From Acidimicrobiales bacterium (GTDB taxonomy: Bacteria > Actinomycetota > Acidimicrobiia > Acidimicrobiales > Iamiaceae): DNA of 64,000 nt. The first letter of the stretch is position 1. Each line of letters begins with the position of its first letter. This document shows positions 3,680 to 21,200 of the stretch, in pieces. The stretch covers positions 1-64,000 of the forward strand of contig DASZTW010000008.1 of assembly GCA_035547835.1 (NCBI GenBank), in the 5' to 3' direction. Position numbers and translations under genes: made by a program. The notes under the pieces were generated by a model, which searched no databases, had not been told where the DNA came from, and worked only from the letters and a program-made list of their open reading frames with translations.

Positions 3680-3885
3680 ACGCGGCCGAAGAACGCGGGC
3701 CAAGAGGTACACCGTCGTCGGGTCGCGAGCTGCCGACCAGGCTGGGTCTGGCCGGAAACCCGCCGTGCAGGTCCTAGATGGGGGTGCATGGGGGTTCGTA
3801 TGGGGGTGGCCCCGATGTGCGCGGGCGGGCAGGAGGCGCATCGTGTCGGACGAGACACGTCCTCCAGCGAACACAGGAGCATCTG

Positions 3886-4335
3886 ATGCCCATCGAGCCC
3901 ATCGTCCTCGCCCCCGAGGACCGCCCCCGATCCCTCAACGTCCTCGGCGAGCAGGTGACCGTCCTCGCCTCGGGTGAGCGGACGGGGAGCTTCGAGATCT
4001 TCTTCCAAGCCGGACCGGAAGGCTCCGGCCCGCCTCCCCACAGCCACCAGTGGGACGAAGCGTTCTACGTGCTGCGCGGCGAGATCCACTTCCAGGTCGG
4101 CGGCGTCGAGCGGACCGCCGGGCCCGGGGCCACGGTCTTCGTCCCGGCCGGGAGCGTGCACTGCTTCCAGCTCGGCGCCGGCGGCGCCGAGGCGCTCAGC
4201 ATCACGTCGCGCCAGGGAGCCTCGGCCATGTTCGGCGCCATCGACCAGCAGATCGCCCCGGATGCCCCCGACCTGGGCGCTCTCGTGGCGATCGCCAGCG
4301 CCCACGGGCTCGACGTCGCGCTCCCGGCGGTCTGA
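3886..4335 (+). CDS. Small cupin-domain protein
   Basis: A 149-residue single-cupin protein. The start at 3886 is preceded by ACAGGAGC, a good ribosome site; an in-frame upstream extension lacks homology. Both cupin motifs are present: motif 1 PPPHSHQWDEAFYVLRGEIHF, whose His and Glu residues would bind a metal, and motif 2 FVPAGSVHCF. Such proteins may be isomerases, dioxygenases or sensors, so the substrate cannot be told. The stop is two bases from the next gene's ATG, so they are probably co-translated. Confidence 0.85.
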   Translation: MPIEPIVLAPEDRPRSLNVLGEQVTVLASGERTGSFEIFFQAGPEGSGPPPHSHQWDEAFYVLRGEIHFQVGGVERTAGPGATVFVPAGSVHCFQLGAGGAEALSITSRQGASAMFGAIDQQIAPDAPDLGALVAIASAHGLDVALPAV

Positions 4336-4337
4336 CG

Positions 4338-4892
4338 ATGAACGCCACCGACGCGCTCGAGCGCGCGCACGACAACCTGCTCGCGGTGGCGAGGAACGTC
4401 ACCGCTGACGACCTCGCCCTCCCGTCGGCATGCGCCGAGTGGGACCTTCGAGCTCTGCTGAACCACGTCCTCGGCGGCGGCTGGATGTTCACCCTCGTGA
4501 ACCGAGGCGAGTCCGCCGGCGAGGATGGCGGTGACCTCGTGGGCGACGACCACGTCAACTCGTGCGTCGAGATGGTCGCCGCGAACCAGGCGTCGTGGCG
4601 GGCCCCCGACGCGCTGGAAGGCGACCGGAGCTACCCGTTCGGCACCTTTCCGGCGCCGATGGCCTTGCACATCAACGTGGGCGAGATCGCGGTCCACACC
4701 TGGGACCTGGCGAAGGCGACGGGCCAGGACGCCACCATCGATCCGGATGTGGCAGAGCTCCTCCTCGGGTTCTACCGGAGCATCCCGCTCGACGAGTTCC
4801 GTGCCCACGGGGCGTTCGGCGTCGAGGTCGAGGTCGACGCGGCGGCGCCGCCGAGCGACCAGGTGCTCGCCCTGCTCGGCTTCCGGCCGTAG
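4338..4892 (+). CDS. TIGR03086-type DinB/maleylpyruvate isomerase-like metal-binding protein
   Basis: A 184-residue protein with the actinobacterial TIGR03086 pattern: a conserved N-terminal helix (ALERAHDNLLAVARNVTADDL), LPSACAEWDLRALLNHVLGG with the first metal-binding His, and the C-terminal HINVGEIAVHTWDLAKATGQ containing two more His. The fold is the DinB four-helix bundle, used by mycothiol- or bacillithiol-dependent enzymes, but this family's reaction is mostly unknown. It starts two bases after the cupin gene and probably shares its transcript. Confidence 0.85.
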   Translation: MNATDALERAHDNLLAVARNVTADDLALPSACAEWDLRALLNHVLGGGWMFTLVNRGESAGEDGGDLVGDDHVNSCVEMVAANQASWRAPDALEGDRSYPFGTFPAPMALHINVGEIAVHTWDLAKATGQDATIDPDVAELLLGFYRSIPLDEFRAHGAFGVEVEVDAAAPPSDQVLALLGFRP

Positions 4893-5352
4893 GGGGTGCA
4901 GACGATGACCGCTGTCAGGTCGATCTGGATCCGGCGCGCCACGGAGCACCAACTCGTTCGGCGGGCCGGGAGTCGTCGGGCTCGCCCGGGCACGACGCGA
5001 GGTTGGGCACCGCCATCGCAGCCACCGACGGTGGTGCTGATGGCTGGTGGCTCGCGGCTGGTGGTGGGTGGTGGCCGTCGCGGGCGGACTTGATCGGTGA
5101 ACAGCGCCGCTTCGAGCGGTGGCGAGACCGGCAAGTCGGGCGTGCGGCGGCCCGTTCTGGTGACGGATCTGGCGCGCGCCGCGCCGATTGCGTCACCGGT
5201 TCGGGCGAGTCGCACCTTCGCCCGTGAGCGGTTCTCGAGGTGGTCCGTGCCGGCACCTACGTGGGGTGTTCGTGCATTCCGGGTGGTCAAGAGGTTCAGA
5301 GGTGGGCGGGCTCGAGTCGGGCTCGCCGGCAATCGAGTGCAGGAGATGCGAG
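4893..5352. other. Intergenic region without recognisable gene
   Basis: About 460 bases with reading frames open by composition only. There is a GT-rich run near 5030-5085 (ctggtggctcgcggctggtg and similar). No RNA gene, terminator hairpin or clear promoter was recognised. Confidence 0.4.
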
Positions 5353-7182
5353 ATGCGAGTTCTCGGCAATGGCAAGGGTGTTCGGAAGGAGGGTGGCGCA
5401 CCGGTCGTGGCGGTTGTCCTGGCCATGGTCGGTGCGGCAGGTCTCTGGGCGCGGGAGAGGTTCCGCCCCGGTCGTCGGCGAGCGTTGCGCGTGGCGGGCG
5501 CGGCCGCGATGGCTGTTCTGGTCGGCGGAGTGGCGACGGCTACGCCCTCGTTCGCCGTGGCGTCGGCACCGCGTGCGGTCGCGCCGGGCGCGGCGGCCAG
5601 CGCGGTGGAGTACCCGATCGAGCTCGCAACCGGCGCGGCATACCACTCGTGTGTGCTGATGTCGGGCGGGTCGGTGAAGTGCTGGGGCTACAACTACTAC
5701 GGCGAGTTGGGTGACGGGACGAGAGAGGACCGGCACACGCCGGTTGCGGTGTCGGGGATCTCGGACGCGACCGCGGTCGCGGTCGGCGGGTATCGCTCGT
5801 GTGCGTTGTTGTCGGGCGGGTCGGTGAAGTGCTGGGGCTACAACGGCGCCGGCGGGTTGGGTGACGGGTCGACCAACGACAGCAACCTCCCGGTGACCGT
5901 GTCGGGGATCTCGGATGCGACCGCGGTCGCCGTTGGTTGGTACCACTCGTGTGCGTTGTTGTCGGGCGGTTCGGTGAAGTGCTGGGGGTACAACCTCGAC
6001 GGCGAGCTCGGTGACGGCACGACCGTCTCCCAGGAGGCGCCGGTCGCGGTGTCCGGGGTCACGGATGCGGTTGCGCTCACGGGCGGCGGCCTCCACTCGT
6101 GTGCGTTGCTGTCGGGCGGTTCGGTGACGTGCTGGGGGTCCAACGGCGAAGGCCAGCTGGGCGACGGCACGACCGCCGTCCGGACGACACCGGTCGCGGT
6201 GTCGGGCATCGCGGATGCGGTTGCCATGGCGAGCGGCAGCGCCCACTCGTGTGCGTTGTTGTCGGGCGGTTCGGTGAAGTGCTGGGGTCGCAACAGCTTC
6301 GGCGAGCTGGGTGACGGGTCGACCACGGCGCACCAGACCCCGGTTGCGGTGTCGGGGATCACCGACGCGACCGCGGTCACCGCCGGCGGCGACCACTCGT
6401 GTGCGTTGCTGTCGGGCGGTTCGGTGAAGTGCTGGGGCCACAACTACCTCGGTGAGCTCGGCGACGGGTCGACCACGGCGCGCCTGAAGCCGGTTGCGGT
6501 GTCGGGGATCACCGACGCGACCGCGGTCACCACCGGCCAGTACCACTCGTGTGCGCTGTTGTCGGGCGGGTCGGTGAAGTGCTGGGGCCGCAACAGCTTC
6601 GGCGAGTTGGGCGACGGGACGACCACGAACCGGTTGACGCCCGTTGCGGTGTCGGGCTTTGACGACACGACGCCCCCGACGGTCACCGCAGTGGTGTCAC
6701 CGGCTCCGAACAGCGAGGGCTGGTACTCGACCGCTCCCACGATCACGTGGGTCGCGACCGACCCGGCGCCGTCGTCGGGCACCCCGACCACGCCGTCGCC
6801 GCTCACCGCCGACACCGAAGGTGACGCGGTCGTGTACACGAGCGGCGAGTCGTGTGACCCTGCGGGCAAGTGCGCGACCGGCACGGCCACGGTCAGCTTG
6901 GACACCACCGCACCGACCATCACCGCCACGAAGACGGGCTCGGGGAACAACACGACGGTCACGTTCCGCTGTGCGGACGGCCTGTCGGGGATCTCGTCGT
7001 GCACCGCGCCGACGAGGGTGGCGCCCGGTGGCCAGGTGACCGGCACCGCGACCGACCGCGCAGGCAACACCGCCACGGTCGTTGTCGCGGGCCCCTCGAA
7101 CGATGCGGCGTGCCTGTTGGTCCCGACGCTGCCGTGGTGTGGAACGTCGCTGAGCTCGTGGCTCGGCGGCCTCGGCCTCTGA
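5353..7182 (+). CDS. Exported RCC1-repeat protein with Ig-like C-terminal part
   Basis: A 609-residue protein whose start follows an AGGAG sequence. A hydrophobic segment near residues 45-65 (ALRVAGAAAMAVLVGGVATA) looks like a signal sequence or anchor. Seven units of 50 residues follow, each with HSCALLSGGSVKCWG, an Asn/Gly turn and GELGDGT, as in RCC1/BLIP-II beta-propeller blades; seven blades would close one propeller. Two Cys per unit could form disulfides outside the cell. Residues about 435-590 resemble bacterial Ig-like modules (TPPTVTAVVSPAPNSEGWY, DTTAPTIT). A binding or surface role is likely; the ligand is unknown. Confidence 0.9.
   Translation: MRVLGNGKGVRKEGGAPVVAVVLAMVGAAGLWARERFRPGRRRALRVAGAAAMAVLVGGVATATPSFAVASAPRAVAPGAAASAVEYPIELATGAAYHSCVLMSGGSVKCWGYNYYGELGDGTREDRHTPVAVSGISDATAVAVGGYRSCALLSGGSVKCWGYNGAGGLGDGSTNDSNLPVTVSGISDATAVAVGWYHSCALLSGGSVKCWGYNLDGELGDGTTVSQEAPVAVSGVTDAVALTGGGLHSCALLSGGSVTCWGSNGEGQLGDGTTAVRTTPVAVSGIADAVAMASGSAHSCALLSGGSVKCWGRNSFGELGDGSTTAHQTPVAVSGITDATAVTAGGDHSCALLSGGSVKCWGHNYLGELGDGSTTARLKPVAVSGITDATAVTTGQYHSCALLSGGSVKCWGRNSFGELGDGTTTNRLTPVAVSGFDDTTPPTVTAVVSPAPNSEGWYSTAPTITWVATDPAPSSGTPTTPSPLTADTEGDAVVYTSGESCDPAGKCATGTATVSLDTTAPTITATKTGSGNNTTVTFRCADGLSGISSCTAPTRVAPGGQVTGTATDRAGNTATVVVAGPSNDAACLLVPTLPWCGTSLSSWLGGLGL
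5644..6693 (+). repeat. Seven tandem 150-bp coding repeats (RCC1 units)
   Basis: The sequence ACTCGTGTG recurs at exactly 150-base steps (near 5644, 5794, 5944, 6094, 6244, 6394 and 6544) with high nucleotide identity between units. Spacing without indels indicates recent tandem expansion or gene conversion under reading-frame constraint. Confidence 0.9.
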
Positions 7183-7202
7183 ACCGGGAGGCCGTAGGTA
7201 GC

Positions 7203-7256
7203 GGGTGTGGGCTGTTACGTACCAGACCGGGCGGAGCGGACTGGCAGCCCACACCC
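7203..7256. terminator. 12-bp inverted repeat after the RCC1 gene
   Basis: GGGTGTGGGCTG (7203-7214) and CAGCCCACACCC (7245-7256) are perfect reverse complements around a 30-base loop, 20 bases after the RCC1 stop. No T-run follows, so this is an atypical terminator or RNA stabiliser. It may instead mark the edge of the mobile region that begins here. Confidence 0.45.
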
Positions 7257-7410
7257 GAACCTGATGAGGGTGCAGCGGCAAACCCGGCAAGCGCTCTTTG
7301 GAGATGCCGAGCCCTCTTCGACACCCGGCGTCCGCGGCGCCTCTCGCTGGCGACTTCGAAGAGCAGTGCTGGGGACCGGTGGTCGCGTGCGGAGCACGCG
7401 TACGGGGCAG

Positions 7411-8661
7411 TCAGGGCGCGAGGGAGCCGACCGGAACCACGGCGATGCCGTCGGGGCGGACGTAGCCGAAGCCTGTCCCGGCGATGACCGCGAGAACTGA
7501 CGGCTCCCCGCTCTTGCGTGTGTCGATCGACTCCCGGAACCGCAGGAGGGCCTCGGCACCCTCGTCGACGAGACCGGCGCCCAGCTTGACCTCGAACGCA
7601 CCCCACCGCCCGTCGGCGAGTTGCACGACAGCGTCTGCCTCGACGCCGTAGTTGTCGCGGTAGTGGAGGACCTGTCCTTCGAGCGGTTGCGCCAGTACGC
7701 GGAGGTCGCGGATGACGAGGGACTCGAACAGGAGCCCGAGGAAGTTGAGATCGGCGAGCAGGCGATCCGGTCCTGCGCCGAGCGCAGCGACCGCGAGCGA
7801 CGGGTCGACGAAGTGCCGCTTGGGTGACGTGCGAAGGTTGGCTCGCGAGCGTAGGTGCGGCGCCCAGGCCGGCTGGTCCTCGATGACCATCAGTCGTTCG
7901 AGGATCGTGAGGTACTCGGCGACGGTGTGCCGGCCGAGCGGGCCGTCCGCGCCTCCGGCATCGGTCGCGAGGACGGTGGTCGCGACCTCGGTCGCGGCGT
8001 TGCGCGCGAGGGCGCGGAAGAGTCGCTCGATGCGTGCCGGATCCCGTCTCGTGCCGGCGACGCGCGACACGTCGACCTCCCGGATCTGCGCGAGGTAGTC
8101 CCGTGCGGCGCGGGAAGCGTCGACCACGCGACGACCCACCTGGGCCGGCCACCCACCGGCGGTGATGCGATCCGCGAGGTCGCGCACCGACAGACCGGGA
8201 TCATCGGAACGGGGAGGCTCGCCCGCCAGCAGGGCTGCGAGGGACACGGCGCCGTTCGTGTGCCCGCTCTCGAAGAGGGTCATGGGGCGCATCCGCAGGA
8301 AGGAGAACCGGCCGGCGCCGGTGTGCCTCGCGACGTCGTCGGCCGGTACGGACGAGCCGGTCAGCACGAACTGGCCGGGAAGGCCTCGGTCGTCGACGGC
8401 CCGACGCACGTGGTTCCACAGGCCCGGCGCGACCTGCCATTCGTCGATCAGCCGCGGGACCGGGCCATCCAGCACGAGTCCTGGGTCAACCGCAGCCGCT
8501 CGCCGCGCGTTGTCGTCGACGTCCAGCAGGACCGAGCTCGCTACTCGTTGACGGGCCGTCTCCGTCTTGCCAGTCGCCTTGGGTCCCTCGAGGACGACGG
8601 CACCGGCAGCGGCGAGGCGGGCATCCAGCTCGGCGTCGACGACTCTGGGCAGGTAGGGCAC
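7411..8661 (-). CDS. DUF4143-family ATPase (AAA plus PD-(D/E)xK-like domain)
   Basis: A 416-residue protein, usual for the family when started at the GTG at 8661 (VPYLPRVVDAELDARL). Walker A is GPKATGKTETA (near residues 22-32) and the Walker B-like motif is PRLIDEWQ. A middle DUF4143 helical region follows. The C-terminal FESLVIRDLR...GVEADAVVQLADGRWGAFEVKLG has the D...ExK pattern of the restriction-endonuclease-like fold. These ATPases are widespread in bacterial genomes, often in mobile or toxin-antitoxin-like contexts, with unclear function. The frame is open beyond the chosen start, so the N-terminus is uncertain. Confidence 0.85.
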   Translation of the reverse strand: MPYLPRVVDAELDARLAAAGAVVLEGPKATGKTETARQRVASSVLLDVDDNARRAAAVDPGLVLDGPVPRLIDEWQVAPGLWNHVRRAVDDRGLPGQFVLTGSSVPADDVARHTGAGRFSFLRMRPMTLFESGHTNGAVSLAALLAGEPPRSDDPGLSVRDLADRITAGGWPAQVGRRVVDASRAARDYLAQIREVDVSRVAGTRRDPARIERLFRALARNAATEVATTVLATDAGGADGPLGRHTVAEYLTILERLMVIEDQPAWAPHLRSRANLRTSPKRHFVDPSLAVAALGAGPDRLLADLNFLGLLFESLVIRDLRVLAQPLEGQVLHYRDNYGVEADAVVQLADGRWGAFEVKLGAGLVDEGAEALLRFRESIDTRKSGEPSVLAVIAGTGFGYVRPDGIAVVPVGSLAP

Positions 8662-9195
8662 GTGCAGGCTCCAACTCGCGGTCAATCCAGAGACCAGATT
8701 GTAGACATCCCAACGACCACTTTGTAGGCATCCGTCCGTTCGTGACGGGGCTGGCGGCACCGGTAGCGCTCCTCCGTCGGAGTCACCAAGAACCCACCGA
8801 CAGCGCCCCTCAGCCATGTCGGCGCACTCGCGGCGCACCTCACGCCGCCAGCGTTCCGTGACCAATCTGTGACCACGGGCCTGCGTCGAACCCTGACCAC
8901 CTCCCGGTGCGGCACCGTGACCTGGGGAAACACCTTGGTGATCGAGTGGGGTGCCGACACAACCCCGCTGACCTGCCGCTACGTGCCGCCTGGACGAGGC
9001 GGTTCCCACTCTAAGGAACTGACTTTCCCACGAGTTCGGTCAGTCCATGGCTCACAGGCCACGGCCCGACCAGGCTCGATCCGGGCCGACGCGGGCGATG
9101 AGGCGCCCGGCCTGGACGTGGGCCAACGGGCGAATGCCCTTGCCGAAGCACGACGGGGCTGTGAGGCTCGGGGCTTCGAAGGAAACGAGTTACTC
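8662..9195. other. Intergenic region with no recognised gene
   Basis: About 530 bases between the DUF4143 ATPase and the small acidic protein gene. On the minus strand just upstream of the ATPase there is a near-repeat, CCTACAAAGTGG then TCTACAATCTGG; the second contains TACAAT, a possible -10 box without a good -35. Frames on both strands are open but unlike any protein I know. Confidence 0.4.
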
Positions 9196-9357
9196 ATGGC
9201 TGTGATCCGAAGCGAATACCCCGACTATCCCGAGACCGACTTCACGACCGAGCAGCTCAACGAGATGTTCCGCGACGAACTCGGTGACGAGGAGTACGAA
9301 CGGATCTTCGGTGATGCCGAGTCAGCTTCACTTCACGACGTACGGCGTCCGCGCTGA
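9196..9357 (+). CDS. Small acidic hypothetical protein (53 aa)
   Basis: The ATG follows GAAGGAAACGAG, a good ribosome site about 10 bases upstream. The product is strongly acidic (YPDYPETDFTTEQLNEMFRD, then ELGDEEYERIFGD) and probably helical. The upstream part of the same open frame looks non-coding, so translation starts here. Size and charge resemble antitoxins or anti-restriction proteins, but no family is recognised. It lies in the mobile patch between two ATPase genes. Confidence 0.45.
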   Translation: MAVIRSEYPDYPETDFTTEQLNEMFRDELGDEEYERIFGDAESASLHDVRRPR

Positions 9358-9452
9358 CGCGAGCAGGGCGCGGGAGAACCACGCGCGGGCTTGGTTTTTG
9401 TGGGAATTCGGCGGCTACCCGAAGACGGCCGTCATGGCGCTTGGCGCGCGGA

Positions 9453-12071
9453 CTACGCCAGTGCGTGCGGTTCGTGCACGCCAAGGTTCTCGCCCCACGC
9501 GCTCAAGGCCTTCAGAACGCGTTGATAGCTCGGTGGGAGAGCTTCGCCGTCCCAATCCGCCACTACCGCCTGGATTGTGCTGAAGTCGTCACGCCGGGCC
9601 ACGCCAAGTCGGTGGAGTACGTGGTTCTTGAACGAGCCCCACGCGGGATCCCAGGTTTCGCGCATCACAGCCCACGACTCAAAGCCCGCGAATTGTGCGC
9701 GCATGCACGCTTCTGGCAGCGCGGCAATGACATCGGGCTCGTCGAACGGTATCGACGCGCACGGCACGCCCCTTTCGCGCAATCCGAGTACCCGGTGCAC
9801 ACTCCGTACCTCGTCAGTCACGTTCGCGTGCGGATCGCCCGCGATGACTTTGAGCTGCTCGCGAGTGACATCGTCGAACAACACCGCTATCGGCAGTCTG
9901 AGGGCCGCGGCGAGCTGGCCCTCTACTAGTGCCCTCGCCTTCGAATGACCACCGATCGGGATGACCACGAGCCGATTATCCGTGAGCGTCTTTGCACCGA
10001 ATGCCTCAAGCACGCATTTGTCGGCCTCGCCCTCCACGACAACCACGCCCTTCACCAACTCAGCCACGCGCGTCCACCCCAACCCAAGGTCATCGGCCAC
10101 ATCGTTCATGCTCTCCATGATCGACAGTTGCATCGACCGCACCTGGGTTCCCCACTCGGGGTCCCGCACGACCCGTAGCACCTGGCCTTGGCCTGGCGCC
10201 AGCCGCAAGAACGGCTGGGCGTGCGTCGCCACGATCGTGGTCCATCGACGCGACATCTCAATGCACCACCGCACTACGTCCTGTTGCGCACGAGGGTGCA
10301 GGTGCAGTTCGGGCTCGTCGGCCAACAACAGATGTGTCATGTCCACTGTTGGTCGCACGGCCAGCACGCGGTCCCTGATGACAGCGGACAGATCTTCGGA
10401 GTCCACGCTGCACGGTGCATCGGCAGCGACCGAGCGGAACCTCGACCGAACATCAGAAATGGCAAGATCGGTGACCAGGCAGACCCATCGCGCGAGTCCC
10501 GACGAGAGGGCGTGGAGCATTGTGAACTCGCCACGCACGTCGACCAATCCAACAGCGAGTTGCGTCACCGCAAGGTGTTCCGGTGGAAGGATCACGATCC
10601 TCCCTGCTTCCGCCAAGAAGTCCGGTGCGAGCTCATTGGCGACCGCCTCCACCGCTAGCAGACTGGCACGGACCGCGGCCTGCGCTTCCATGGACTCAGC
10701 AAACCACTGGTTCGTCGGACCGCCCGTGCCAATGTCATGAGCGAGCAGACGCAGGAACGCCGCGACCTCGTGGAGATCGTCACGCTCGTTGCGCTCGGCC
10801 AGGTCGAGCACCCGATCGGTGAGGGTTATGAGACTCTGCCGATCACCCACCGCCGCCCAGGCATCGTCCCCTTGGGAGTCAATGCCGCGCACGCGCACGT
10901 GGGTCGCACGTCCTGGGCACACGGCGACGCCGTACCGGTCCTCCCAACCGATGGCCGACCTGGCGTGGTCTTCCCAGAAACCCGGGCGCTCGTCGCATTC
11001 ACCGAGGGCGATCGTCGTGACGGTCGATTGGAGGTCACCGACCAGCGGCCTGGCCAAGCTTGGCAGCACCTCAAGCAAGCGCTGCCCAATCGTCTCCGTG
11101 TCGGGGGTGAGGCTCGACGTGGTTACCGAAGGCCCGTTCACCTGGAAGCGGCTGAGTATCTCCGCAGACTCCTCATCCGACTCGACGACTGTTTCGAACC
11201 ACTCGTCCACCAGCGAGCTGCCGCTCTTCGGATGATCGCTGAGGTACTGACAAATGATTTGTCGGCTCTCGCGAATGACGCGCGGCGGTACGGCGATGCG
11301 CCACACCTCGCCCCAGCCAACCAAGGTCGCCTCTCTCAGCACCTTGGCCGCCAGCGGCACGAAGACCTCAGCGACGGCGTCGTCGAGCCCGATCGCCAGA
11401 TACCAGCCCACCAGGTCCGGGTCCGGCGCGGTCGGGAGCGCTGTTCCCTGAACCTCGAAGATCACGTCGCTTGGGTGCCGGTCGTCGCCATAAAGGCCGT
11501 CCGTCGCCGGACTCAGCGCGAGCGCGTTCAGAAGCGACGTCTTGCCCGCTCCGTTACGCCCCGCAAGTACGGTCAACGGACTGACGGGGACGACCGCCTC
11601 GTAGATGCAACGGAAACCCTCGACGTTGGCGCGGGTCACCTGGTAGTTCCCTACCGTGCTGAAGTACGCCTGGATCTCGGCGCGACGCTCATGATCCTGC
11701 AAGGCACGAGCGCGTTGTTCACGACTCGCAAGAACCTTCGGGTGAGTGCGCAACGGCCAAAGGAGCGCTGGATCGTAGTTCGGCACAGGACGCGTCGAGA
11801 ACGTGGTCCTGCCGATCTCTTCCCCAAGCAACGGCCGAACCGTTTGATAGTGGCACCCGAGTGCTTCCGCCACCGCCTTCAGTGGCACACCTCGCGTGCC
11901 CTGGATGAGTCGGCCCTGAGCGAGATAGGCATCTGGCCAACTGTGATGCTCGGGAGCCGACGCGATCACGCCGAGTTCGGCGCGGCGCCTCTCCCGAGCG
12001 CGCTCGCGCTGAGACGCCCCCCAGTCTCCCTTGCCGCCATTCATCGGGTTCCAGTCGGCTGACCACGCCAC
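9453..12071 (-). CDS. OLD-family ATP-dependent endonuclease (AAA plus TOPRIM)
   Basis: A 872-residue protein (863 if the ATG at 12044 is used instead of the GTG). The N-terminal 120 residues include a helix-turn-helix-like segment (LKAVAEALGCHYQTVRPLLG). The ABC/SMC-like ATPase has Walker A GRNGAGKT (171-178), an LSSG signature and Walker B HLLLADEPELHLHP near 580. The C-terminal TOPRIM domain has VVVVEGEADKCVLEAFGA near 675 and VLFDDVT near 729, the acidic metal sites of OLD nucleases. Relatives include phage P2 OLD and GajA of Gabija. No UvrD-like GajB partner is present, so it may act alone. Context and more mixed codon use suggest horizontal acquisition. Confidence 0.85.
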   Translation of the reverse strand: MAWSADWNPMNGGKGDWGASQRERARERRRAELGVIASAPEHHSWPDAYLAQGRLIQGTRGVPLKAVAEALGCHYQTVRPLLGEEIGRTTFSTRPVPNYDPALLWPLRTHPKVLASREQRARALQDHERRAEIQAYFSTVGNYQVTRANVEGFRCIYEAVVPVSPLTVLAGRNGAGKTSLLNALALSPATDGLYGDDRHPSDVIFEVQGTALPTAPDPDLVGWYLAIGLDDAVAEVFVPLAAKVLREATLVGWGEVWRIAVPPRVIRESRQIICQYLSDHPKSGSSLVDEWFETVVESDEESAEILSRFQVNGPSVTTSSLTPDTETIGQRLLEVLPSLARPLVGDLQSTVTTIALGECDERPGFWEDHARSAIGWEDRYGVAVCPGRATHVRVRGIDSQGDDAWAAVGDRQSLITLTDRVLDLAERNERDDLHEVAAFLRLLAHDIGTGGPTNQWFAESMEAQAAVRASLLAVEAVANELAPDFLAEAGRIVILPPEHLAVTQLAVGLVDVRGEFTMLHALSSGLARWVCLVTDLAISDVRSRFRSVAADAPCSVDSEDLSAVIRDRVLAVRPTVDMTHLLLADEPELHLHPRAQQDVVRWCIEMSRRWTTIVATHAQPFLRLAPGQGQVLRVVRDPEWGTQVRSMQLSIMESMNDVADDLGLGWTRVAELVKGVVVVEGEADKCVLEAFGAKTLTDNRLVVIPIGGHSKARALVEGQLAAALRLPIAVLFDDVTREQLKVIAGDPHANVTDEVRSVHRVLGLRERGVPCASIPFDEPDVIAALPEACMRAQFAGFESWAVMRETWDPAWGSFKNHVLHRLGVARRDDFSTIQAVVADWDGEALPPSYQRVLKALSAWGENLGVHEPHALA

Positions 12072-12425
12072 GGCATTAGCCCCAGTGCGGCCCTCCGAGA
12101 GAGTCGGCCACGGCGCTCTGGAACCTCTCGGCAGTTGCTATGAAACCCTAATGACGCCCAAACCCGGCTCGGGCGCCTGACCAGGGCAAACGGGTACTTC
12201 GCTAACACCCCGACCGACACGGTACGCAAAGGCCGCCGCCCGCCGCCCGCCCGACCTCGACCCGATGCGTCTGGCCGCTGGGGTAGGTCGCGTCGCGAAC
12301 CGGGCACGGTAGGTCCCTGCGGGGTCTGACGGGCGGGCGGAATGCGCAACCAGTCCCGGGCCGGAACAACCTGTGAAAGGGGTTGCCCTCACGCTGTCAT
12401 GTGAGCTGTTGCGGGACGCTTGATC
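12072..12425. other. Intergenic region between divergent OLD gene and transposase
   Basis: About 350 bases that must carry both divergent promoters. No terminal inverted repeat matching the far side of the transposase was found by eye. No gene is recognised. Confidence 0.4.
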
Positions 12426-14246
12426 GTGGACAGCATCGCGGAGTCGGCTCGCGAGCCCGCACAGCGAGCAGTCGACGAAGCGTTCAACGCCAACACCACG
12501 AACCGCGCGGCGATCGTCGACAACGACGTCCACTGGGCCAGCGCACTGGTCGACAACTCGGGGCTGCCGGACATCATGGCTGAGTGGGAACACGAGGACC
12601 GGGTTGCGCCCGGCGGTGCACCGCGCCGCTACCCGATCCGGGCGTTGCTGGTGGCGATGACGTTGGCTGCTCGGTTCGGTGAGCCTCAACTGCTCACCAA
12701 CTTTCGCGACATCCTGTTCGAGCGGATCTCCCCGACGGCCCGGGCCAGCCTCGGAGTCCCGGAACCTGCCCATGTGGCGGGGCGTCGGGGCCGTCGCCTT
12801 CAGCGCGAAGCGCAGTACCGCACAGTCCGGACGCGATTCCAGACTCTGGTTGCGCTGGTCGGTGGCCGCCAGATCCCCAATGGCACTCGCCTTACCCCCG
12901 ACGAACTCGCGGCGAGGACCAAAGACGGGGACCCGGAGCGGATCGAACGGTGCGAGGAGCGGCTCCACCGCCTCGTCAACGCGGTACTGGAAGCGAGCGT
13001 CCAGCAGGTGCCGCCCGAACTGCGCCGTCGTTGGGAAGGCTCGGTTGCGGTGGATGCCACGCCCGTGCCGGTGTGGGCGCGGCCACCTCGATACGCCAGC
13101 AAGAAGACCAACGCCAAGGCACGGATCGAGCAGTGCTCGGCTGAGCCCGAGGCAGGGTGGTACATGCGTCACCGTGACCGGCGCGACGGAGCAGACGACG
13201 GACCTGCGCCGCCGCCAAACGCGGGCACGAAGGTGCTCCGCAAGTCGCTATGGACCTACGAGGCAACGCTTGTCGTCTCGGGCGCAGCCGAAGCGGAAGC
13301 TGACGGCACCTTCCCCTACCTCGTCGTTGGGATGGCGCCACTGCACAAGCCGGGCTCTGAGCCCGGCCCGAATGCGCTACGTGCGCTGACCTCGATACGA
13401 GACCGAGGCCACCCCGCACGGTACGTGGCTGGGGACCGGGCATACTCCAACGCCAAGCCCGGGACCTTCCAGCTGCCCGCGCGGGCACTCGGCTACGAGC
13501 CTGTGTTCGACTACCGCGACGACCAGCTCGGGGTACAAGCAACACACGAGGGCGCACTCCAAGTAGAAGGCGGTTGGTACTGCCCGTCAATGCCCCGAGC
13601 CCTCGTGAACGCCACGGCCGACTACCGGGCAGGTCGCATCACGTCCGACGTGTACTACAAGCGCATCGCCGCGCGCCGCGATTACCTCATGCGCCAGAAA
13701 GCACGCCCGGACGCGGACGGTTTCACCCGGCTGACCTGCCCCGCAGCAGGACCGTCACCGGCCGCACGGTGCGACCTCAAGCCACGGTCGCTCACCGATA
13801 AGACCGGCGGCAAGACCCACATCACCCTCGTCGACGACGTGCAGGCACATCCGCCGAAGGTCTGCAAGCAGGCAACGGTGAGCTTCCCGCCGATCGCCGG
13901 GGCCAAGTTCGCCCAGCCGCTCCAATACGCGTCGCGATCGTGGCAGTACACCTACAGCACCCTGCGCAACGCCATCGAGGGCTTCAACGGCTATGCCAAA
14001 GACACCGCGAGCGACGCGCTCGCGTCCGCTGGACGTCGGCGGGTGCACGGCAGGGCGGCACAATCCGTGCTCGTCGCATTCACGATCTGCGGTGTGAACC
14101 TGCGCAAGCTCCGCTCGTTCCTCCGACTCGCCGAAGACGACGGCAGCGGCACGTTGCGCAAACCTCGGCGCAAGCGACGCCTCGGCCCAGTCCTGCGCGA
14201 CCATCTCCCGAGCGGGGCCAAGAGCGGCCTGCCAAACACGAGCTGA
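12426..14246 (+). CDS. DDE-type transposase
   Basis: A 606-residue protein using the GTG at 12426; a TTG two codons upstream is possible. Three acidic residues sit in the right contexts for an RNase H-like DDE site: Asp in VAVDATPVPVW (about 210), Asp in YVAGDRAYSN (about 337) and Glu in TLRNAIEGFNGYAKD (about 518). The Arg/Lys-rich C-terminus (RKPRRKRRLG) fits DNA binding. The open frame is intact. I do not recognise the exact IS family. No flanking inverted repeats or target duplication were found, so this may be an old or atypically bounded element. Confidence 0.8.
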   Translation: MDSIAESAREPAQRAVDEAFNANTTNRAAIVDNDVHWASALVDNSGLPDIMAEWEHEDRVAPGGAPRRYPIRALLVAMTLAARFGEPQLLTNFRDILFERISPTARASLGVPEPAHVAGRRGRRLQREAQYRTVRTRFQTLVALVGGRQIPNGTRLTPDELAARTKDGDPERIERCEERLHRLVNAVLEASVQQVPPELRRRWEGSVAVDATPVPVWARPPRYASKKTNAKARIEQCSAEPEAGWYMRHRDRRDGADDGPAPPPNAGTKVLRKSLWTYEATLVVSGAAEAEADGTFPYLVVGMAPLHKPGSEPGPNALRALTSIRDRGHPARYVAGDRAYSNAKPGTFQLPARALGYEPVFDYRDDQLGVQATHEGALQVEGGWYCPSMPRALVNATADYRAGRITSDVYYKRIAARRDYLMRQKARPDADGFTRLTCPAAGPSPAARCDLKPRSLTDKTGGKTHITLVDDVQAHPPKVCKQATVSFPPIAGAKFAQPLQYASRSWQYTYSTLRNAIEGFNGYAKDTASDALASAGRRRVHGRAAQSVLVAFTICGVNLRKLRSFLRLAEDDGSGTLRKPRRKRRLGPVLRDHLPSGAKSGLPNTS

Positions 14247-14474
14247 CCCCAGCCACGCCCGACTCGCAGTGACCACGCGGCTCACGCCGCGGCTTTGTCG
14301 CGCCCGAGCACGGGCGCTGGTGGGCCCCATCCCGTCACCTCGACCCACGATCGCCGTCTAAGACCGGCCAAACAGGCCGTCGAAGGGCGATCCAGCGCTG
14401 CGAGCCGACACCAGATCCGATCGCGGCGGGTTGTGTCGGCATGGGGCGATCAGATACGTCGGTACCCCATCGAG
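14247..14474. other. Spacer between transposase and tRNA-Leu
   Basis: About 230 bases with a short CG-rich dyad near 14275-14302 (GCGGCTCACGCCGC) that may terminate transposase transcription. No copy of the tRNA 3' end was seen here. Confidence 0.3.
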
Positions 14475-14558
14475 TGGGCGAGGGGGGACTTGAACCCCCA
14501 CGTCCTTGCGGACACAGGCACCTGAAGCCTGCGCGTCTGCCAATTCCGCCACTCGCCC
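14475..14558 (-). tRNA. tRNA-Leu (anticodon CAG)
   Basis: On the minus strand the acceptor stem GGGCGAG pairs with CTCGCCC, followed by discriminator A. The anticodon stem CAGGC/GCCTG encloses the loop TTCAGGT, giving anticodon CAG. A long variable arm (TGTCCGCAAGGACGT) and T-arm GGGGG-TTCAAGT-CCCCC complete a class II leucine tRNA. CCA is not encoded. Its 3' end faces the mobile patch at 7.4-14.2 kb, a classic integration geometry, but no integrase or attachment repeat was found. Confidence 0.95.
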
Positions 14559-14631
14559 GAGTGGTGTAGCCGGGTCAGGTTAGCGCGACCCCCTACGGCC
14601 CACGAACGGTGATCGCGGCCAAGATGACCCC

Positions 14632-15540
14632 ATGACCGCGCCGCGCGCCACGCGCCGCCAGGTGCTGAGGGCGGCGGGTTCGGTGGGCCTCGGGGCGTTG
14701 TCATGGGGGCTGCTCGGAGGTTGCGGCTTGCTCCGCGCCGCGGGTCCTGATGTGCCGGCAGCGACGCGGGCGTGGGGCCCGTCGCCGTTGCAGGCAGCCG
14801 ACCTCTACCTCCCGCTCACCAACGCCTCGCTGCCCGCGGCGTCGCTGCCCGTCGTGGTGGTCATCCACGGCGGATACTGGTCACCGCCGTGGAACCGTGC
14901 CATCACCGCGGCCCTCGCGTCGGCGCTGGCGGGACGGGGGTGGGCGGCGTGGAACGTCGACTACCGCTCGCTGGGCCAGGGGGGCGGCTGGCCGGGCACG
15001 TTCGACGACGTGGCGGCGGGTGTCGACGAGCTCGCGTCGCTGGTCACCGAGTACCCGCAGCTCGACCTGAGCCGCGTGGCGGCCGTCGGCCATTCGGCAG
15101 GCGGGCCGCTCGCGCTGTGGGCGGCAGCGCGTCCGAAGCTGCCTGCGGGCGCGCCGGGCGCCAACCCGAAGGTGACGGTGCGGGGGGTGGCCTCGCTGTC
15201 AGGGGTCGACGATCTCGGCGCCTGCGCGGACAGCGACGCGGGAGACGGCGCGTGCCGGCGGCTGTTGGGCGGCACCCCGCAGACGGCGCCGCGCCGCTTC
15301 GCCCTCGCCGACCCGATGCAGCTCGTGCCGTTGCACGTGCCGCAGCTGGTGCTCAACGGCCTCGCCGACGCCACCGTCTCGCCCGACACGGCGCGACGGT
15401 ATGCCGCTCGGGCTGCGGCGAGCGGTGACCGGGTGCAGCTCGCGCTGCTCCCCGGCGTCGACCACAACGAGACGGTTGTGCCGCGCGGCGCGCCGTGGGC
15501 GACCCTGGTGGCCGCGCTGCGACCGATGTTCCTCGGCTGA
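14632..15540 (+). CDS. Exported alpha/beta-hydrolase (esterase/lipase-like)
   Basis: A 302-residue protein. The N-terminus TRRQVLRAAGSVGLG is a twin-arginine-like signal. LLGGC near residues 27-31 resembles a lipobox, so it may be a Tat-exported lipoprotein. The hydrolase core shows the oxyanion motif VVVVIHGGYW, nucleophile elbow AVGHSAGG, and a late GLADATVSPDTA...PGVDHNETV supplying the acid and His. This is the BD-FAE/kynurenine-formamidase-like group. Substrate unknown; probably a carboxylic ester in the envelope or outside the cell. Confidence 0.85.
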   Translation: MTAPRATRRQVLRAAGSVGLGALSWGLLGGCGLLRAAGPDVPAATRAWGPSPLQAADLYLPLTNASLPAASLPVVVVIHGGYWSPPWNRAITAALASALAGRGWAAWNVDYRSLGQGGGWPGTFDDVAAGVDELASLVTEYPQLDLSRVAAVGHSAGGPLALWAAARPKLPAGAPGANPKVTVRGVASLSGVDDLGACADSDAGDGACRRLLGGTPQTAPRRFALADPMQLVPLHVPQLVLNGLADATVSPDTARRYAARAAASGDRVQLALLPGVDHNETVVPRGAPWATLVAALRPMFLG

Positions 15541-15561
15541 TTCCCTAAGGGGGATGGGGTG

Positions 15562-15905
15562 TCAAGCGGTTCGTCTGTTGACGTGATCGTGGCGTGGCGG
15601 GGACGATTGGTGGTGGGGAAGGTCGCCCCGTCTGTCCATGCCGTTGGTGTGTGACCTCACCTGTGCCTTGAGCACTTGTTGGGGGGCCTTCCCCATTCGG
15701 TGGCGGGCGCGTTGGTCGGCGGTGACGGTGAACTGTTCGGCGATGATCTGCTTCGCTTCGGCGGGCGTAACCGGTCGGCCGTCGATGTCGCAGATCACGT
15801 AGGGGGTGCCGCGTTGGAGGACCCGCCAGGCCCGTTCTGCGAGGCGGGCGCCGCCGTCAGGCTGGACCGCTCCGAGGCGCGCGCCGGTGCGCAGTACGCT
15901 CCCGC
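15562..15905 (-). pseudogene. Truncated C-terminal fragment, probably of a transposase or plasmid-type protein
   Basis: The minus-strand frame encodes protein-like sequence with internal logic (RAWRVLQRGTPYVICDIDGRPVTPAEAKQIIAEQFTV, then MGKAPQQVLKAQVRSHT). Its upstream end runs into the TetR gene on the other strand with no proper start, so it looks like a surviving 3' end. The style recalls C-termini of actinobacterial IS proteins, but I cannot name the family. It may mark a past insertion upstream of the TetR gene. Confidence 0.4.
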
Positions 15906-15910
15906 TCGCG

Positions 15911-16558
15911 ATGTCTGCGAGCGAGCCCCGACGGGCGCTGCCACGCGGCCCGCACGGGCTGTCGCGCGAGGAGGTCGAGCGCTCGCAGCGACGCCGGCTC
16001 TTGCAGGCCACCACCGATGTCGTGTCCGAGCGCGGCTACGTGAAGACCACCGTTGCGCACATCCTCGAAGCCGCCGGTGTGTCCCGGGCGACGTTCTACG
16101 CGTTGTTCGCCGACCGCGAGGCCTGCTTTCACGCGGCGTACGCGGCCAACGCAGAGATGGTGGCCGAGGTGATGGAAGCAGAGTTGCGCAAAGTGCGCGC
16201 CGATCGCGACCGCACCCCCCTCGACCGGTTGAGCCGGTTGCTGTACGTGTACCTCGACGCCTTGCGCAGCGCGCCCACGCTCGCGCGGGTGTTCCTCGTC
16301 GAGGTGTACGCGGGTGGCCCGGCCGCCATCGAGCAGCGTCGCCAGTCGCTCGACCGGTTCGTCGACCTGGTGGCCGAGACCCACCGCGGCGAGAAGGGCG
16401 TGCTCGGCACACGCGCCGACCAGCGGTTCGCCGCCCAGGCCTTTGTCGGTGCGGTGAGCTCACTCGTGACCAACGCGGTCGGCGTCGGCGAGACCGACCG
16501 GCTGCTCGATCTCCACGCGCCGCTCATGAAGCTGGCCCGCCAGATCACAAAGTCATAG
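15911..16558 (+). CDS. TetR/AcrR-family transcriptional regulator
   Basis: A 215-residue protein using the ATG at 15911. The N-terminal TetR helix-turn-helix is clear: RRRLLQATTDVVSERGYVKTTVAHILEAAGVSRATFYALFADREACFHAAY. The C-terminal ligand-binding domain is helical and begins near residue 75. It lies just upstream of a secreted esterase on the same strand (78-base gap), which may be its target. The preceding DNA contains a truncated IS-like fragment, so its original promoter may have been replaced. Confidence 0.88.
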   Translation: MSASEPRRALPRGPHGLSREEVERSQRRRLLQATTDVVSERGYVKTTVAHILEAAGVSRATFYALFADREACFHAAYAANAEMVAEVMEAELRKVRADRDRTPLDRLSRLLYVYLDALRSAPTLARVFLVEVYAGGPAAIEQRRQSLDRFVDLVAETHRGEKGVLGTRADQRFAAQAFVGAVSSLVTNAVGVGETDRLLDLHAPLMKLARQITKS

Positions 16559-16636
16559 ACATGAGTGTTTATCTCTTGTAGGGTGCCTCCCAATCGACAA
16601 GCGCGCGGCCGGGGGTCGGCCGTGGGGGAGGTCGCG

Positions 16637-18103
16637 ATGCGACGCACGGCTTGGTTGGGTTTGGCGCTGCTCATGGCCATGGCGGTCGGGGTGTTACCCC
16701 TGGCGACCGCGCCACCGGCGGCCGCCGACGCGCCGACGATGAGCTCGGGCCACGGCATCACCGTCACCGGGTGGCGCTGGATCAGCGCCCGCACGTTCGA
16801 GGTCGACATCAGCACCGCCGACATCGCGCCCGTGGCGGTGAACGGGCCCAACCGCGTGCGGGTCACCCTGCCGAACGACTACTTCTCCTCCGGCACCACC
16901 CGCTACCCGGTGCTGTACCTGCTGCACGGCGGCGCGGGCGGCAACAGCGCCCAGTGGACCACCGGCGGCGGCGCCGAGGAAGCCATCACCAACGGCCAGC
17001 CGCTCATCACCGTGATGCCCGACGGCGGCAAGGTCGGCTGGTTCACCAACTGGGTCAACCAGAGCCAGGGCGCCCAGAACTGGGCCGACTTCTACCTCAA
17101 CCAGCTGATCCCGTGGGTCGACGGCAACTTGCGCACCATCGCCACCAAGCAGGGCCGGGCCATCGCCGGCCTGTCGATGGGCGGCTTCGGCGCCGTGCGG
17201 TTCGCGCAGGACCGCCCCGACCTGTTCGCCTTCGTCGGCAGCTTCTCCGGCGCCGTCGACCTCGGCGACTCCGGCACCCGCACCGTCGTCACCGAACAAG
17301 CCGTGCAATACGGCTTCAACGCCTACGGCCCGTTCGGCAACCCGTTCTGGCCCTTCGACGGCACGTGGAACGCGCTGAACCCGCTGAACCGGGCGTCGCG
17401 CCTGCAAGGCGTGTCGGTGGCGCTCTACGCGGGCGGCGGCAGCAACGACCAGGACGTGCTCGAAGGCACCATGCGCGCCTCGGCCGATCGCTTCAAGGCC
17501 GCCCTCGACGCGGCGGGCGTGCCGGCCTTCTACTGGATGTACGGTCGCCCCGGTGCGTCGCTGCCGTGGGGCTGCGACGGCGGCCACAACTTCGGCTGCT
17601 GGAACTTGGCGCTCAGCGACGCCGTGCCACGCATGATGACCGTGCTGTCGCACCCCGGCGCCGGTGGAGGCACCCCGCCGCCAGCGCAGCCGGTCGCCGA
17701 CGGCGGCTTCGAAGACGCCGGGCTCGGCGCCTGGGCGTGCACCACCAACTGCGGCGCCGACCACGGCGCAGGCCTCGCCCACAGCGGCGCTGGCAACGGC
17801 TGGGTGCGCAACGACACCGGCTGGAACGACATCCACCAGACCATCGCCGTGCAGGCCAACCACACCTACACCGTCACGGCGTGGGTGCGAACGTCGGCCA
17901 ACAACACCGACGGCTACTTCGGCCTGCGCACGCTCGGCGGCCAAGTGCTCGGCGAGACGCAGTTCGCCAACCTCGGCGACTACACCAAGCTCACCGTCAA
18001 CGTGAACACCGGCGCCAACACCAGCGTCGTGCTCTACGGCGGGCTGTGGGCGAACGGCGACACCTGGCTGCAGATCGACGACGTCGCCGCGGTCGCCCAG
18101 TAG
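16637..18103 (+). CDS. Secreted esterase (EstD/Ag85-like) with C-terminal carbohydrate-binding-like module
   Basis: A 488-residue protein. The start follows GGGGGAG with 6-base spacing. The signal peptide MRRTAWLGLALLMAMAVGVL ends near PAAADA. The catalytic domain (to about residue 345) has YPVLYLLHGGAGG, nucleophile elbow IAGLSMGGFGAVRFA and a late His in DGGHNFGCWN, as in the esterase D/antigen 85 family. A short Pro-rich linker leads to a beta-rich module (DGGFEDAGLGAWACTT...HTYTVTAWVRTS) like CBM4/9 domains. It probably deacylates a polysaccharide or transfers acyl groups in the envelope. Confidence 0.88.
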   Translation: MRRTAWLGLALLMAMAVGVLPLATAPPAAADAPTMSSGHGITVTGWRWISARTFEVDISTADIAPVAVNGPNRVRVTLPNDYFSSGTTRYPVLYLLHGGAGGNSAQWTTGGGAEEAITNGQPLITVMPDGGKVGWFTNWVNQSQGAQNWADFYLNQLIPWVDGNLRTIATKQGRAIAGLSMGGFGAVRFAQDRPDLFAFVGSFSGAVDLGDSGTRTVVTEQAVQYGFNAYGPFGNPFWPFDGTWNALNPLNRASRLQGVSVALYAGGGSNDQDVLEGTMRASADRFKAALDAAGVPAFYWMYGRPGASLPWGCDGGHNFGCWNLALSDAVPRMMTVLSHPGAGGGTPPPAQPVADGGFEDAGLGAWACTTNCGADHGAGLAHSGAGNGWVRNDTGWNDIHQTIAVQANHTYTVTAWVRTSANNTDGYFGLRTLGGQVLGETQFANLGDYTKLTVNVNTGANTSVVLYGGLWANGDTWLQIDDVAAVAQ

Positions 18104-18249: not shown

Positions 18250-21200
18250 GTGACCGAGAACGCTGGGGCGTCCGGCGACCAGACCGGGTCCCCACTCGTC
18301 GCCGACGAGGTGACCATCGACGTCCCCGCGGGCGGCCGGGTCTACGTGGTGAGCGACCTCTTGCTCCGCCAGGCCCCCGACGACGCCGCCGAGGCCGCCT
18401 CCACCGAGATGGCCCGCTCGATCGACGCCATCACCGGCCCGGCGGTGCTGATCCTCAACGGCGACACGTTCGACCTGCTCGGCGAAGGGCACCTCGACCC
18501 GATGGCGGTGCTCGGCGCACACGGCCGCCTCACCAAGGCGCTCGCAGCGTTCGCGGAGGGCCCCGACCGGCGCCTGGTGGTCATCCCCGGCAGCCGCGAC
18601 CACTGCCTGGCTTGGCACACACCGGCGGTCCGCAACGTGCAACGCCGCATGACCGCGGAAGTCGCGCTGGCGGTCGAGCTGTCGATTGCGACTGGCCAGG
18701 GCACCAAGGCCGTGCGGGTCGAGCACGGCAGCCGCTTCGATCCGGCCTACGCGTTCGACGACCCGCGCAACCCGGGCGAGTCGCCGCTCGGCCAACACCT
18801 GGTGAGCGACTTCCTGCCGATCCTGCGTCGCCCCGGCGCCGCGTGGCTCGACGGCATCGAGCACTTGGCCAACGCCGACGACGTCTCGGCGTTCGTCGGG
18901 TCGCGCCTCACGTACCGGCGGGTCTTGCGCCGCTTCGGGTGGTTGGCCGTGCCGTTGCTCGTGGCGGTCGGCCTGATGATCGCCAGCGTGATCGCCCACG
19001 CGGCCGGCGGGCACCACGGGGTGGGCCGCACGTTGCGGGCCTGGGCCGCGGGTGTCGGTTTGTCGTCCGCTGTGTTGTTGGCGGTCGTCGGGCTGGTCAG
19101 CGCGCTGTGGTGGTGGTCGGTCCGCGACCCGTTGTCGCTGTTCACGCTCGAGTCGATCTCGGGCGACGAGCACCACCCGAACGACCCGCCGCGGGCCGCC
19201 GGACACCGCCTGGTCGCTGAGGGCCACACCGGCTTCATCACCGGCCACACCCGCAGCGCCGAGCTCGCCGACCTCGGCGGCGGGTTCTACGCCAACGCCG
19301 GTTGCGCCACCGTCGTCGTCGAGCGTCGACCCGGTCGCTTCGGCCTGCTCGACGCGTTCGGCGCCGTGCGCCAGACCTCATACCTCGTGCTCGAAGCCGG
19401 GCCCGACCTTCGCGTCTCGCTCCATCACCAGCGCCAGCCGATCGTGTCGTCGACGACCACCATCGAGCGGCTCTGCACCCGTACCTGCGCCGGCGCCAGT
19501 CCCAACGTGCAGCCGGGCGACGCCGGGCGGGTCGCCACGTGGCCGGGCAGCCCGCCGTGGCCCGACCAGGAAGCGCCAGGGCTGGTTCGCACCCGCGCCC
19601 GCCGGGTCGGCGCCCTCGTCGCGGCGGTCGTCGGCCTCGTCGACCTCGTCTCCGCCGTCACGCCACCGGTGCGGGCCCGGCTGCGGGCGGTCGACGACCT
19701 GCTCCCCCTCGTGGTCTCCCAGACGGCCGCCGCCCTGGTCGTCCTGGCCGGCCTCGCGCTGTTGCTGCTGGCCCGTGGGCTGCGCCGCGGCCACCGCACC
19801 GCGTGGGTGGCGGCGATCGTCTTGCTGTGGTCGTCGTTCCTGCTCCACGTGGTGAAGGGGCTCGACTTCGAGGAGGGACTGGTCGCGCTCGTCGCCGGCC
19901 TGTTCCTGTTGTTCAACCAGCGCTTCTTCCGGGTGAAGTCCGACGAGTTCTCGCGCCAGCGGGCGAGCGCCACGATCCTCGGCGGGGTCGGCATCGCCGT
20001 GGCGGCCGGCGTCGCCGCGGTGATGTTGTTCCACGGCCACGATCCCCGGCCGTCGTTGCCGCACTCGTTTCTCGCGGTGGTCGAGCGACTGATCGGCGAC
20101 ACCAGCCGGCACCTGCCGGAGCGGATCGACGACTTCCTGTCGCCCAGCCTGCTCGCCGCGTCGATCGGGCTGGTCATCGCCGCGGGGTGGATCGCGTTCC
20201 GGCCGGTGGTCGGCCAACGGCTCGCCGCCCCCGCACCCGAGGCCGAGGAGAACGCCCGGCGCATCGTCGGGCTGTACGGCGCCGACACGCTGGCCTACTT
20301 CGCCCTCCGCGACGACAAGCGCTGGTTCTTCTGGGGCGACACGGTCGTGGCGTACGCGGTCACCAACGGGGTGGCGCTCGTGTCACCCGACCCGATCGGC
20401 CCGGTGTGGGAGCAGCGGCGCGCCTGGTTCGCCTTCCGCGAGTTCGCCGACGAGCACGGCTGGCCGGTTGCGGTCATGGGCGCGTCGCACGACTGGCTGC
20501 CCATCTACCACGCATCGGGGATGCGCGACATGTACGTCGGCGACGAAGCCGTGGCCGATGTGCGGCGCTTCTCGCTCGAGGGCGGCAAGAACAAGGGCTT
20601 GCGCCAAGCCGTCAACCGGATCGCCAAGTACGGCTACCGGATGGACTTCTTCGACCCCACCGACGTGCCGGCCGACGTCGAACAGGGGCTGCGGAACCTG
20701 ATGGCGGGGTCGCGCCGCGGCGAGGTCGAGCGCGGGTTCTCGATGACGCTCGGCCGGGTGTTCGATCCCCGCGACGAGGGCCTGCTGCTGGCGGTGTGCT
20801 TCGGGCCCGACGGCAGCCCGGCGGCGTTCTGCCAGTACGTGCCGGCGCCCGGTGTGCAGGGCTACTCGCTCGACTTGATGCGCCGGTCAGAGGCCGAGCA
20901 CCCCAACGGCCTGACCGATTTCGTGGTCGTGCGCACCATGGAGCACTTGCGAGAGCAGGGGATGGTCGGGCTCGGCCTCAACTTCGCGACCATGCGGGCC
21001 GTGCTCGCCGGCGAGCGGGGCGAAGGGGTCACCCCGCGGATCGAGAAGTGGTTCTTCTCGAAGATGAGCGACTCGATGCAGATCGAGTCGTTGTGGCGCT
21101 ACAACGCCAAGTTCGACCCCGACTGGGTGCCGCGCTACGCGTGCTACGAGTCCACCGAGCACATGCTCGCCTCGGCGTTCGCGCTGGCGAAGGCCGAGTC

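Follow-up and report, generated by a model that had tools for sequence, protein, structure and literature searches.

A candidate single-gene OLD-type defence protein with a rare N-terminal extension and an altered TOPRIM motif in a small actinobacterial branch

Can an OLD protein protect a bacterium by itself, as the product of a single gene? OLD proteins that occur in isolation are rare, and little is understood about them; single-gene defence is named as an open question in the available part of PMC10568477. E. coli YbjD gives part of the answer (PMC13261556, available part). The question is raised again by a gene at 9453..12071 (minus strand) of the window, which is the whole 64,000-nucleotide stretch of DNA analyzed in this study and belongs to contig C8 of a 3.70-Mb draft genome. 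The original prediction was that this gene encodes a stand-alone OLD nuclease with an AAA plus TOPRIM core as in GajA and with a helix-turn-helix (HTH)-like N-terminal region, and that it could be a single-gene defence system.

Domain make-up, class, and neighborhood of the OLD-type gene

The ORF starts with a GTG codon at 12071, ends with a stop codon at 9453, and has no internal stop codon over 872 codons. Translation could alternatively start at an in-frame ATG codon at residue 10. The 872-aa protein scores above the Pfam cut-offs for AAA_15 (PF13175; 51.2 bits, cut-off 32.1), AAA_21 (PF13304; 42.4 bits, cut-off 27), and DUF2813 (PF11398; 22.5 bits, cut-off 21), the last of which I take to be the YbjD family. 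The match to OLD-like_TOPRIM (PF20469) at residues 674-733 is barely above the cut-off (24.5 bits versus 23.2). Thus, an OLD-type protein having both the AAA part and the TOPRIM part is encoded by one ORF, as was predicted. The Pfam matches and a reading of the sequence placed the Walker A motif GRNGAGKT at residues 171-178 (11538..11561, minus strand, as for all of the protein features below) and the Walker B motif LLLADE at residues 581-586 (10314..10331). The LSSG sequence at residues 522-525 (10497..10508) is a candidate ABC signature, and His617 is the H-loop histidine. The two halves of the ATPase are about 400 residues apart. In a phmmer search, the top PDB sequence match was the OLD protein of T. 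scotoductus (TsOLD; 6p74) with an E-value of 3e-10. The PADLOC models of GajA, AriA, and Old match the protein in two stretches at 52-53 bits, the AriA match (53.2 bits) being located on the ATPase halves. A structure of the whole protein was also predicted with 10 viral OLD rows aligned, and its pLDDT of 42 was too poor for a fold search.

It is known that OLD proteins are classed by genomic context (PMC10568477 and PMC12796447, available parts). By context, the window protein is a Class 1 OLD. Neither a helicase nor a reverse transcriptase was found among the scanned neighbors of the gene, in agreement with the prediction that no GajB helicase or reverse transcriptase adjoins it. Like P2 Old, TsOLD, and E. 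coli YbjD/OldB, all of Class 1, the window protein is one polypeptide composed of an ABC-type ATPase with Walker A and B motifs and a C-terminal TOPRIM of the OLD type, with no helicase or reverse transcriptase partner. In contrast to these proteins, it has an N-terminal extension, and its length of 872 aa exceeds those of the TsOLD chain (528) and YbjD (552) (PMC13261556, available part). It is better called a variant than a standard Class 1 member because its catalytic residues fail the conservation of metal A and metal B residues stated for Class 1 homologs in the available part of PMC7049728. The full metal set of the OLD family (E, DxD, and the metal-B residues) is incomplete in the window protein; the first Glu, the first Asp, and Asp684 are kept.

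Three other classes were considered and rejected. Gabija (Class 2) was ruled out since there is no GajB and no adjacent UvrD/PcrA/Rep-like helicase. The window protein shares the ATPase-TOPRIM layout of GajA but differs from the Gabija protein in the absence of the GajB-type helicase, in the altered DxD motif, and in the extra N-terminal domain. A retron (Class 3) was ruled out since there is no reverse transcriptase in the scanned neighbors and no ncRNA family match; an Rfam scan of 4000-18000 matched tRNA only. PARIS (Class 4), whose AriB is a TOPRIM nuclease cutting tRNA, was ruled out since the ATPase and the TOPRIM of the window protein are fused in one ORF. The archaeal Class 5 protein Cran1, which has a role in the cell cycle and not in defence, resembles the window protein in having an OLD layout outside the known multi-gene defence systems. 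However, Cran1 differs in being archaeal and essential and in having all active-site residues conserved, as reported in the available part of PMC12796447. Searches of open-access literature for N-terminally extended or HTH-bearing OLD proteins, for DUF2813, and for DUF3097 turned up no paper seen to describe this architecture.

Is the gene really stand-alone? An ATPase gene with AAA_14 and DUF4143 (117.3 bits) lies at 7411..9009 (minus strand), 443 bp from the OLD-type gene and on the same strand. This is a candidate defence gene resembling PDC-S01 (224.3 bits with PADLOC). Thus, the gene stands alone in the sense that it has no helicase or reverse transcriptase partner, but not in the sense that it has no possible defence neighbor. 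An RCC1-repeat protein is encoded at 5188-7182 (plus strand), including an array of 150-bp direct repeats at 5643-6692. On the other side, a transposase-like ORF of 608 aa (12420-14246, plus strand) is divergent from the OLD-type gene; it resembles IS5-type sequences only very weakly (E 0.081), has no Pfam match, and occurs once in the genome. A tRNALeu gene (14474-14558, minus strand) lies past this ORF at the edge of a region of lower GC3. GC3 is lower in the OLD-type gene (0.756), the DUF4143 gene (0.79), and the transposase-like gene (0.795) than in the genes at 14632-15540, 16565-18103, and 18250-21369 (0.90-0.94). Four 20-kb stretches from the same family around the homolog of the gene at 14632-15540 were compared. 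None of the seven tested window genes of 647-14246 has a match there, and genes to the right match in three of the four stretches. The lower GC3 and the lack of matches for the genes of 647-14246 place the OLD-type gene in accessory DNA. A tRNA-borne integrative element was also considered and rejected, since the window holds no second occurrence of any 12-mer of 14441-14560 and there is thus no att repeat.

A small actinobacterial branch and its TOPRIM active site

Sequence comparison places the window protein in a small actinobacterial branch. A branch model was built from six members: the window protein, L003 (genome G154), L031 (G283), L032 (G582), L097 (G748), and L079 (a copy on an Arthrobacter plasmid). 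L103, a fragment in G560, was used only for reading the motif and is outside the six-member model. When one member was left out in turn, the omitted member still scored 48.1-100.8 bits. The window protein had the lowest score (48.1 bits against the model built without it). With this window-omitted model, a branch fragment (L098) scored 37.5 bits, and the best score otherwise found outside the branch was 27.2 bits for a DUF3097 protein.

How common is the branch? In a tblastn search of 198 related genomes, 25 had a match with an E-value of 1e-3 or lower; besides the own genome, strong matches were found only in G031 and G154. At the class level, three of 395 genomes match at 1e-10, and at the phylum level, two of 396 genomes match at 1e-9, the own genome being counted in each case. 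A C-terminal profile search added G748 as well as fragments in G607 and G560. The fragment in G560 (L103, 1396-1854), a genome of the same genus as G582, is probably a gene remnant. No relatives were found when plasmids, phages, viral contigs, and genome contigs were searched with the window protein. The branch model found 12 loci in viral contigs, all of which are distant OLD-like relatives, and nothing was found when phages and viral contigs were searched with L031. Plasmid searches with L003 and with L031 each found the same single Arthrobacter plasmid locus. At this locus (L079, about 4852-6978 of the megaplasmid), the first part of the OLD-like gene is in another frame, and the gene looks broken or affected by a sequence error.

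The TOPRIM core of the window protein (residues 674-735; 9867..10052) was delimited by the PF20469 match and by an alignment to TsOLD. In TsOLD, the metal A residues are E377, D431, and D433, and the metal B residues are D381, S478, and E480, in addition to R487 (PMC7049728, available part). Glu680, Asp684, and Asp733 of the window protein align with the metal residues of TsOLD, while Val735 replaces D433. Thus, the DxD position is occupied by Asp733-Asp734-Val735 (9867..9875), with Val for the second Asp. The corresponding motif is DNV in L003, L079, and L103, DHI in L031, DHA in L032, and DKL in L097. DxD is present in none of the seven readable branch members, the form being D-x-(V/I/A/L), and the first Glu and the first Asp of the TOPRIM are kept throughout the branch. 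Outside the branch, DxD was read by eye in 14 of 16 ORFs (L070, which is cut short, was left out), the exceptions being L053 and L069. A regex scan of 82 ORFs, whose counts were set aside because many rows are misplaced, found L028, L009, and L058 outside the branch to be also without DxD. The loss of the second Asp is a mark of the branch, although it is not unique to the branch. The original prediction of an ordinary GajA/OLD core was right about the ATPase-TOPRIM layout and needs revision at the active site. Further downstream, Glu778 in the FDEPD sequence (residues 776-780; 9732..9746) is a candidate metal-B ligand by comparison with the classical xLExD stretch. Lys815 (9627..9629) is a candidate catalytic Lys, as a Lys is aligned in five of the six branch members and in DUF3097 rows.

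Can such a TOPRIM still cut? The available part of PMC6755086 reports that BpOLD with the single mutation D457A cleaves without discernible change and that nicking can be supported by a single metal site. The BpOLD result indicates that an enzyme without the second Asp may still be active. In P2 Old, killing was abolished by the D455A mutation, which lies at the DxD motif (PMC7049728, available part). The TOPRIM of the branch may be active, weakened, or dead. I lean toward the explanation that the window protein is a single-gene, ATP-gated defence protein of the OLD kind in a rare actinobacterial branch, and that its TOPRIM may nick rather than degrade. By analogy with characterized OLD proteins, the ABC-type ATPase head, which is dimeric in TsOLD, would be a nucleotide-gated sensor or switch. 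The trigger would be a disturbance by a phage or a plasmid, for example a shift in nucleotide levels, the presence of DNA ends, or the blocking of a repair complex of the host. The triggered head would then release the TOPRIM to cleave nucleic acid (DNA or tRNA), and replication or the cell would be stopped. A weaker or nicking-type nuclease, not a processive one, would be expected because the second Asp is replaced while Glu680, Asp684, Asp733, the downstream acid, and the Lys remain.

There is an appreciable, though clearly smaller, chance that the TOPRIM is accessory or has lost its catalytic activity and that the ATPase part and the N-terminal extension sequester or sense a phage or host factor, as in YbjD. 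The absence of the second Asp from all of the readable branch members fits this explanation. So does the match of DUF2813, presumably a YbjD-type model, to the window protein and to L002 (38.1 bits), the only other protein found with the extension. Moreover, the TOPRIM of the stand-alone E. coli YbjD is dispensable for its anti-phage effects (PMC13261556, available part), so that a nuclease role of the window protein is not assured. On the other hand, Glu680, Asp684, Asp733, Glu778, and Lys815 are all kept in the window protein, and the branch-wide presence of the first Glu and the first Asp suggests selection on the metal site. The role of the TOPRIM can be tested directly in a branch like this one, which combines an altered TOPRIM with a front domain of its own.

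The N-terminal extension

The region before the ATPase was predicted to be about 120 residues in length. It was found to comprise residues 1-143 (11643..12071). A second copy is present in L002 (genome G031, contig C127), with 42% identity over residues 22-134 and a tblastn E-value of 5e-23. Over residues 22-260, the window protein and L002 share 38% identity; L002 is interrupted by the contig end. The remainder of L002 was not found in G031, where one weak match reads as an FtsE-like gene. L003 and L032 start at the ATPase and have no extension, and L031 has just a few residues ahead of the ATPase. The extension is thus real but very rare, with one other copy found. It is likely to be a translated domain because its conservation between the window protein and L002 equals that at the start of the ATPase.

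Is the extension an HTH? A possible HTH lies at residues 64-83 (11823..11882), which read LKAVAEALGCHYQTVRPLLG. The HTH_23 model of Pfam matches the extension at 16.7 bits, under the cut-off of 24.6. In a single-sequence AF2 model of the N-terminal 145 residues, there are helices at 64-71 and 75-82, with a mean pLDDT of 55 that is too poor for a fold search. As the HTH pattern, I assumed A-x3-G-x5-hydrophobic-x2-hydrophobic. The window extension has this pattern, while L002 lacks one key position of it. The pattern also occurs in 793 of 10,000 shuffles of the window extension (about 8%). Thus, its presence is not significant, and this test speaks against the HTH reading. No HTH match came up when a profile of the extension was searched against PDB sequences. 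The matches to a bilin lyase-isomerase (E 0.0075) and an azoreductase (E 0.66) in this search were taken as chance. While the extension itself stood up, its HTH nature is only suggested. In the single-gene defence explanation, the extension would be an added module for recognition or partner binding, possibly of the HTH type and possibly DNA-binding.

Kinship with DUF3097 and genomic contexts of the relatives

The actinobacterial DUF3097 proteins (PF11296) resemble the branch in having a TOPRIM-like VEGxHD ... D-H-L stretch and a downstream (W/F)K. L003 matches DUF3097_C at 22.4 bits, below the cut-off. Of 26 relative genomes, 16 have DUF3097; Corynebacterium glutamicum is the one control genome of 14 that has it. 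With the six-member branch model, all 15 DUF3097 loci score at 19.8-31.4 bits, which is about level with classical OLD nucleases. The best ORFs other than the branch, branch fragments, and DUF3097 are L109 (25.9 bits) and L004 (20.1 bits). None of 30 loci of ordinary TOPRIM proteins scores with the full branch model; among the matches listed for the six leave-one-out models, two such loci score (4.7 and 2.9 bits) with one model. The converse is weak: with the DUF3097 model, L003 scores 16.3 bits and the window protein is not picked up. By hhalign, the branch matches DUF3097 with 86.6% probability versus 93.6% for classical OLD. I read the branch as lying between DUF3097 and classical OLD proteins, which is not a proven merger. 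In the open-access literature, one paper was found for DUF3097, naming it just within a list of DUFs. The link offers a starting point for work on this protein, which is conserved in actinobacteria.

The window protein might instead be a conserved cellular factor for DNA repair or chromosome maintenance, related to DUF3097 and Cran1-like proteins, and not a defence protein. The scores of all of the DUF3097 proteins with the branch model and the wide presence of DUF3097 in the relative genomes are in favor of this, as is the cellular role of the OLD protein Cran1 (PMC12796447, available part). However, the patchy distribution of the branch at the class and phylum levels, the accessory location of the window gene, and the defence neighbors make such a role rather unlikely.

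What surrounds the relatives? PADLOC was run on the neighbors of four of the seven loci (the window, G154, G283, and G748), and strong matches were found in three of the four. In G283, PsyrT (825 bits) and PsyrA (273 bits) are followed by the OLD-like gene and then a PbeA-like helicase (201 bits). In G748, a DruE-like helicase (614 bits) and the OLD-like gene are followed by ZacA (394 bits), ZacB (561 bits), ZacC (1110 bits), and DarG (432 bits). In G154, a short HNH-like ORF upstream scores 28 bits, too weak to count, and a GHKL-type ATPase and a methyltransferase are nearby. The OLD-like gene of G582 is flanked by a 5′-nucleotidase and a SnoaL gene, with no defence-like gene directly adjoining according to Pfam. 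A glyoxalase gene is on the visible side of L002 in G031, and next to the Arthrobacter plasmid copy are an ORF that matches nothing and a gene for a protein with sigma-70 region 4. Across the contexts compared, there is no partner gene common to the branch members, and the scans of neighbors named no UvrD-like match.

The original prediction would have been undermined by close homologs consistently embedded in a known multi-gene system with parts missing here. No such system is shared by the branch, and the neighborhood comparison gave no sign of missing parts at the window gene. It is quite improbable that the gene is a remnant of a Gabija-like or other multi-gene system that has lost its partner, since the ORF is intact, the partners vary (PsyrTA; DruE-like plus ZacABC; 5′-nucleotidase), and the defence clusters of the relatives have no partner gene in common, even though GajA is the best PADLOC model by E-value (52.9 bits, partial, in two stretches) and helicases lie in the gene clusters of the G283 and G748 relatives. 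A role in defence is probable for the window protein and is the best guess because relatives in two genomes sit amid strong PADLOC matches and the window gene adjoins the PDC-S01-like gene.

A broader idea can be put forward tentatively. The branch may represent an undescribed actinobacterial class of OLD proteins, with a D-x-(V/I/A/L) TOPRIM of ancestry shared with DUF3097, whose members would be add-on modules moving between defence clusters. The sub-branch of the window protein would have gained a recognition domain of its own and would act alone.

An arrangement of several systems was observed at L113 (1586-15846). A DruE-like helicase gene, the OLD-like gene, and the ZacABC genes form one run on the same strand there, after which comes the DarG gene on the opposite strand. 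This locus is possibly a composite defence cluster.
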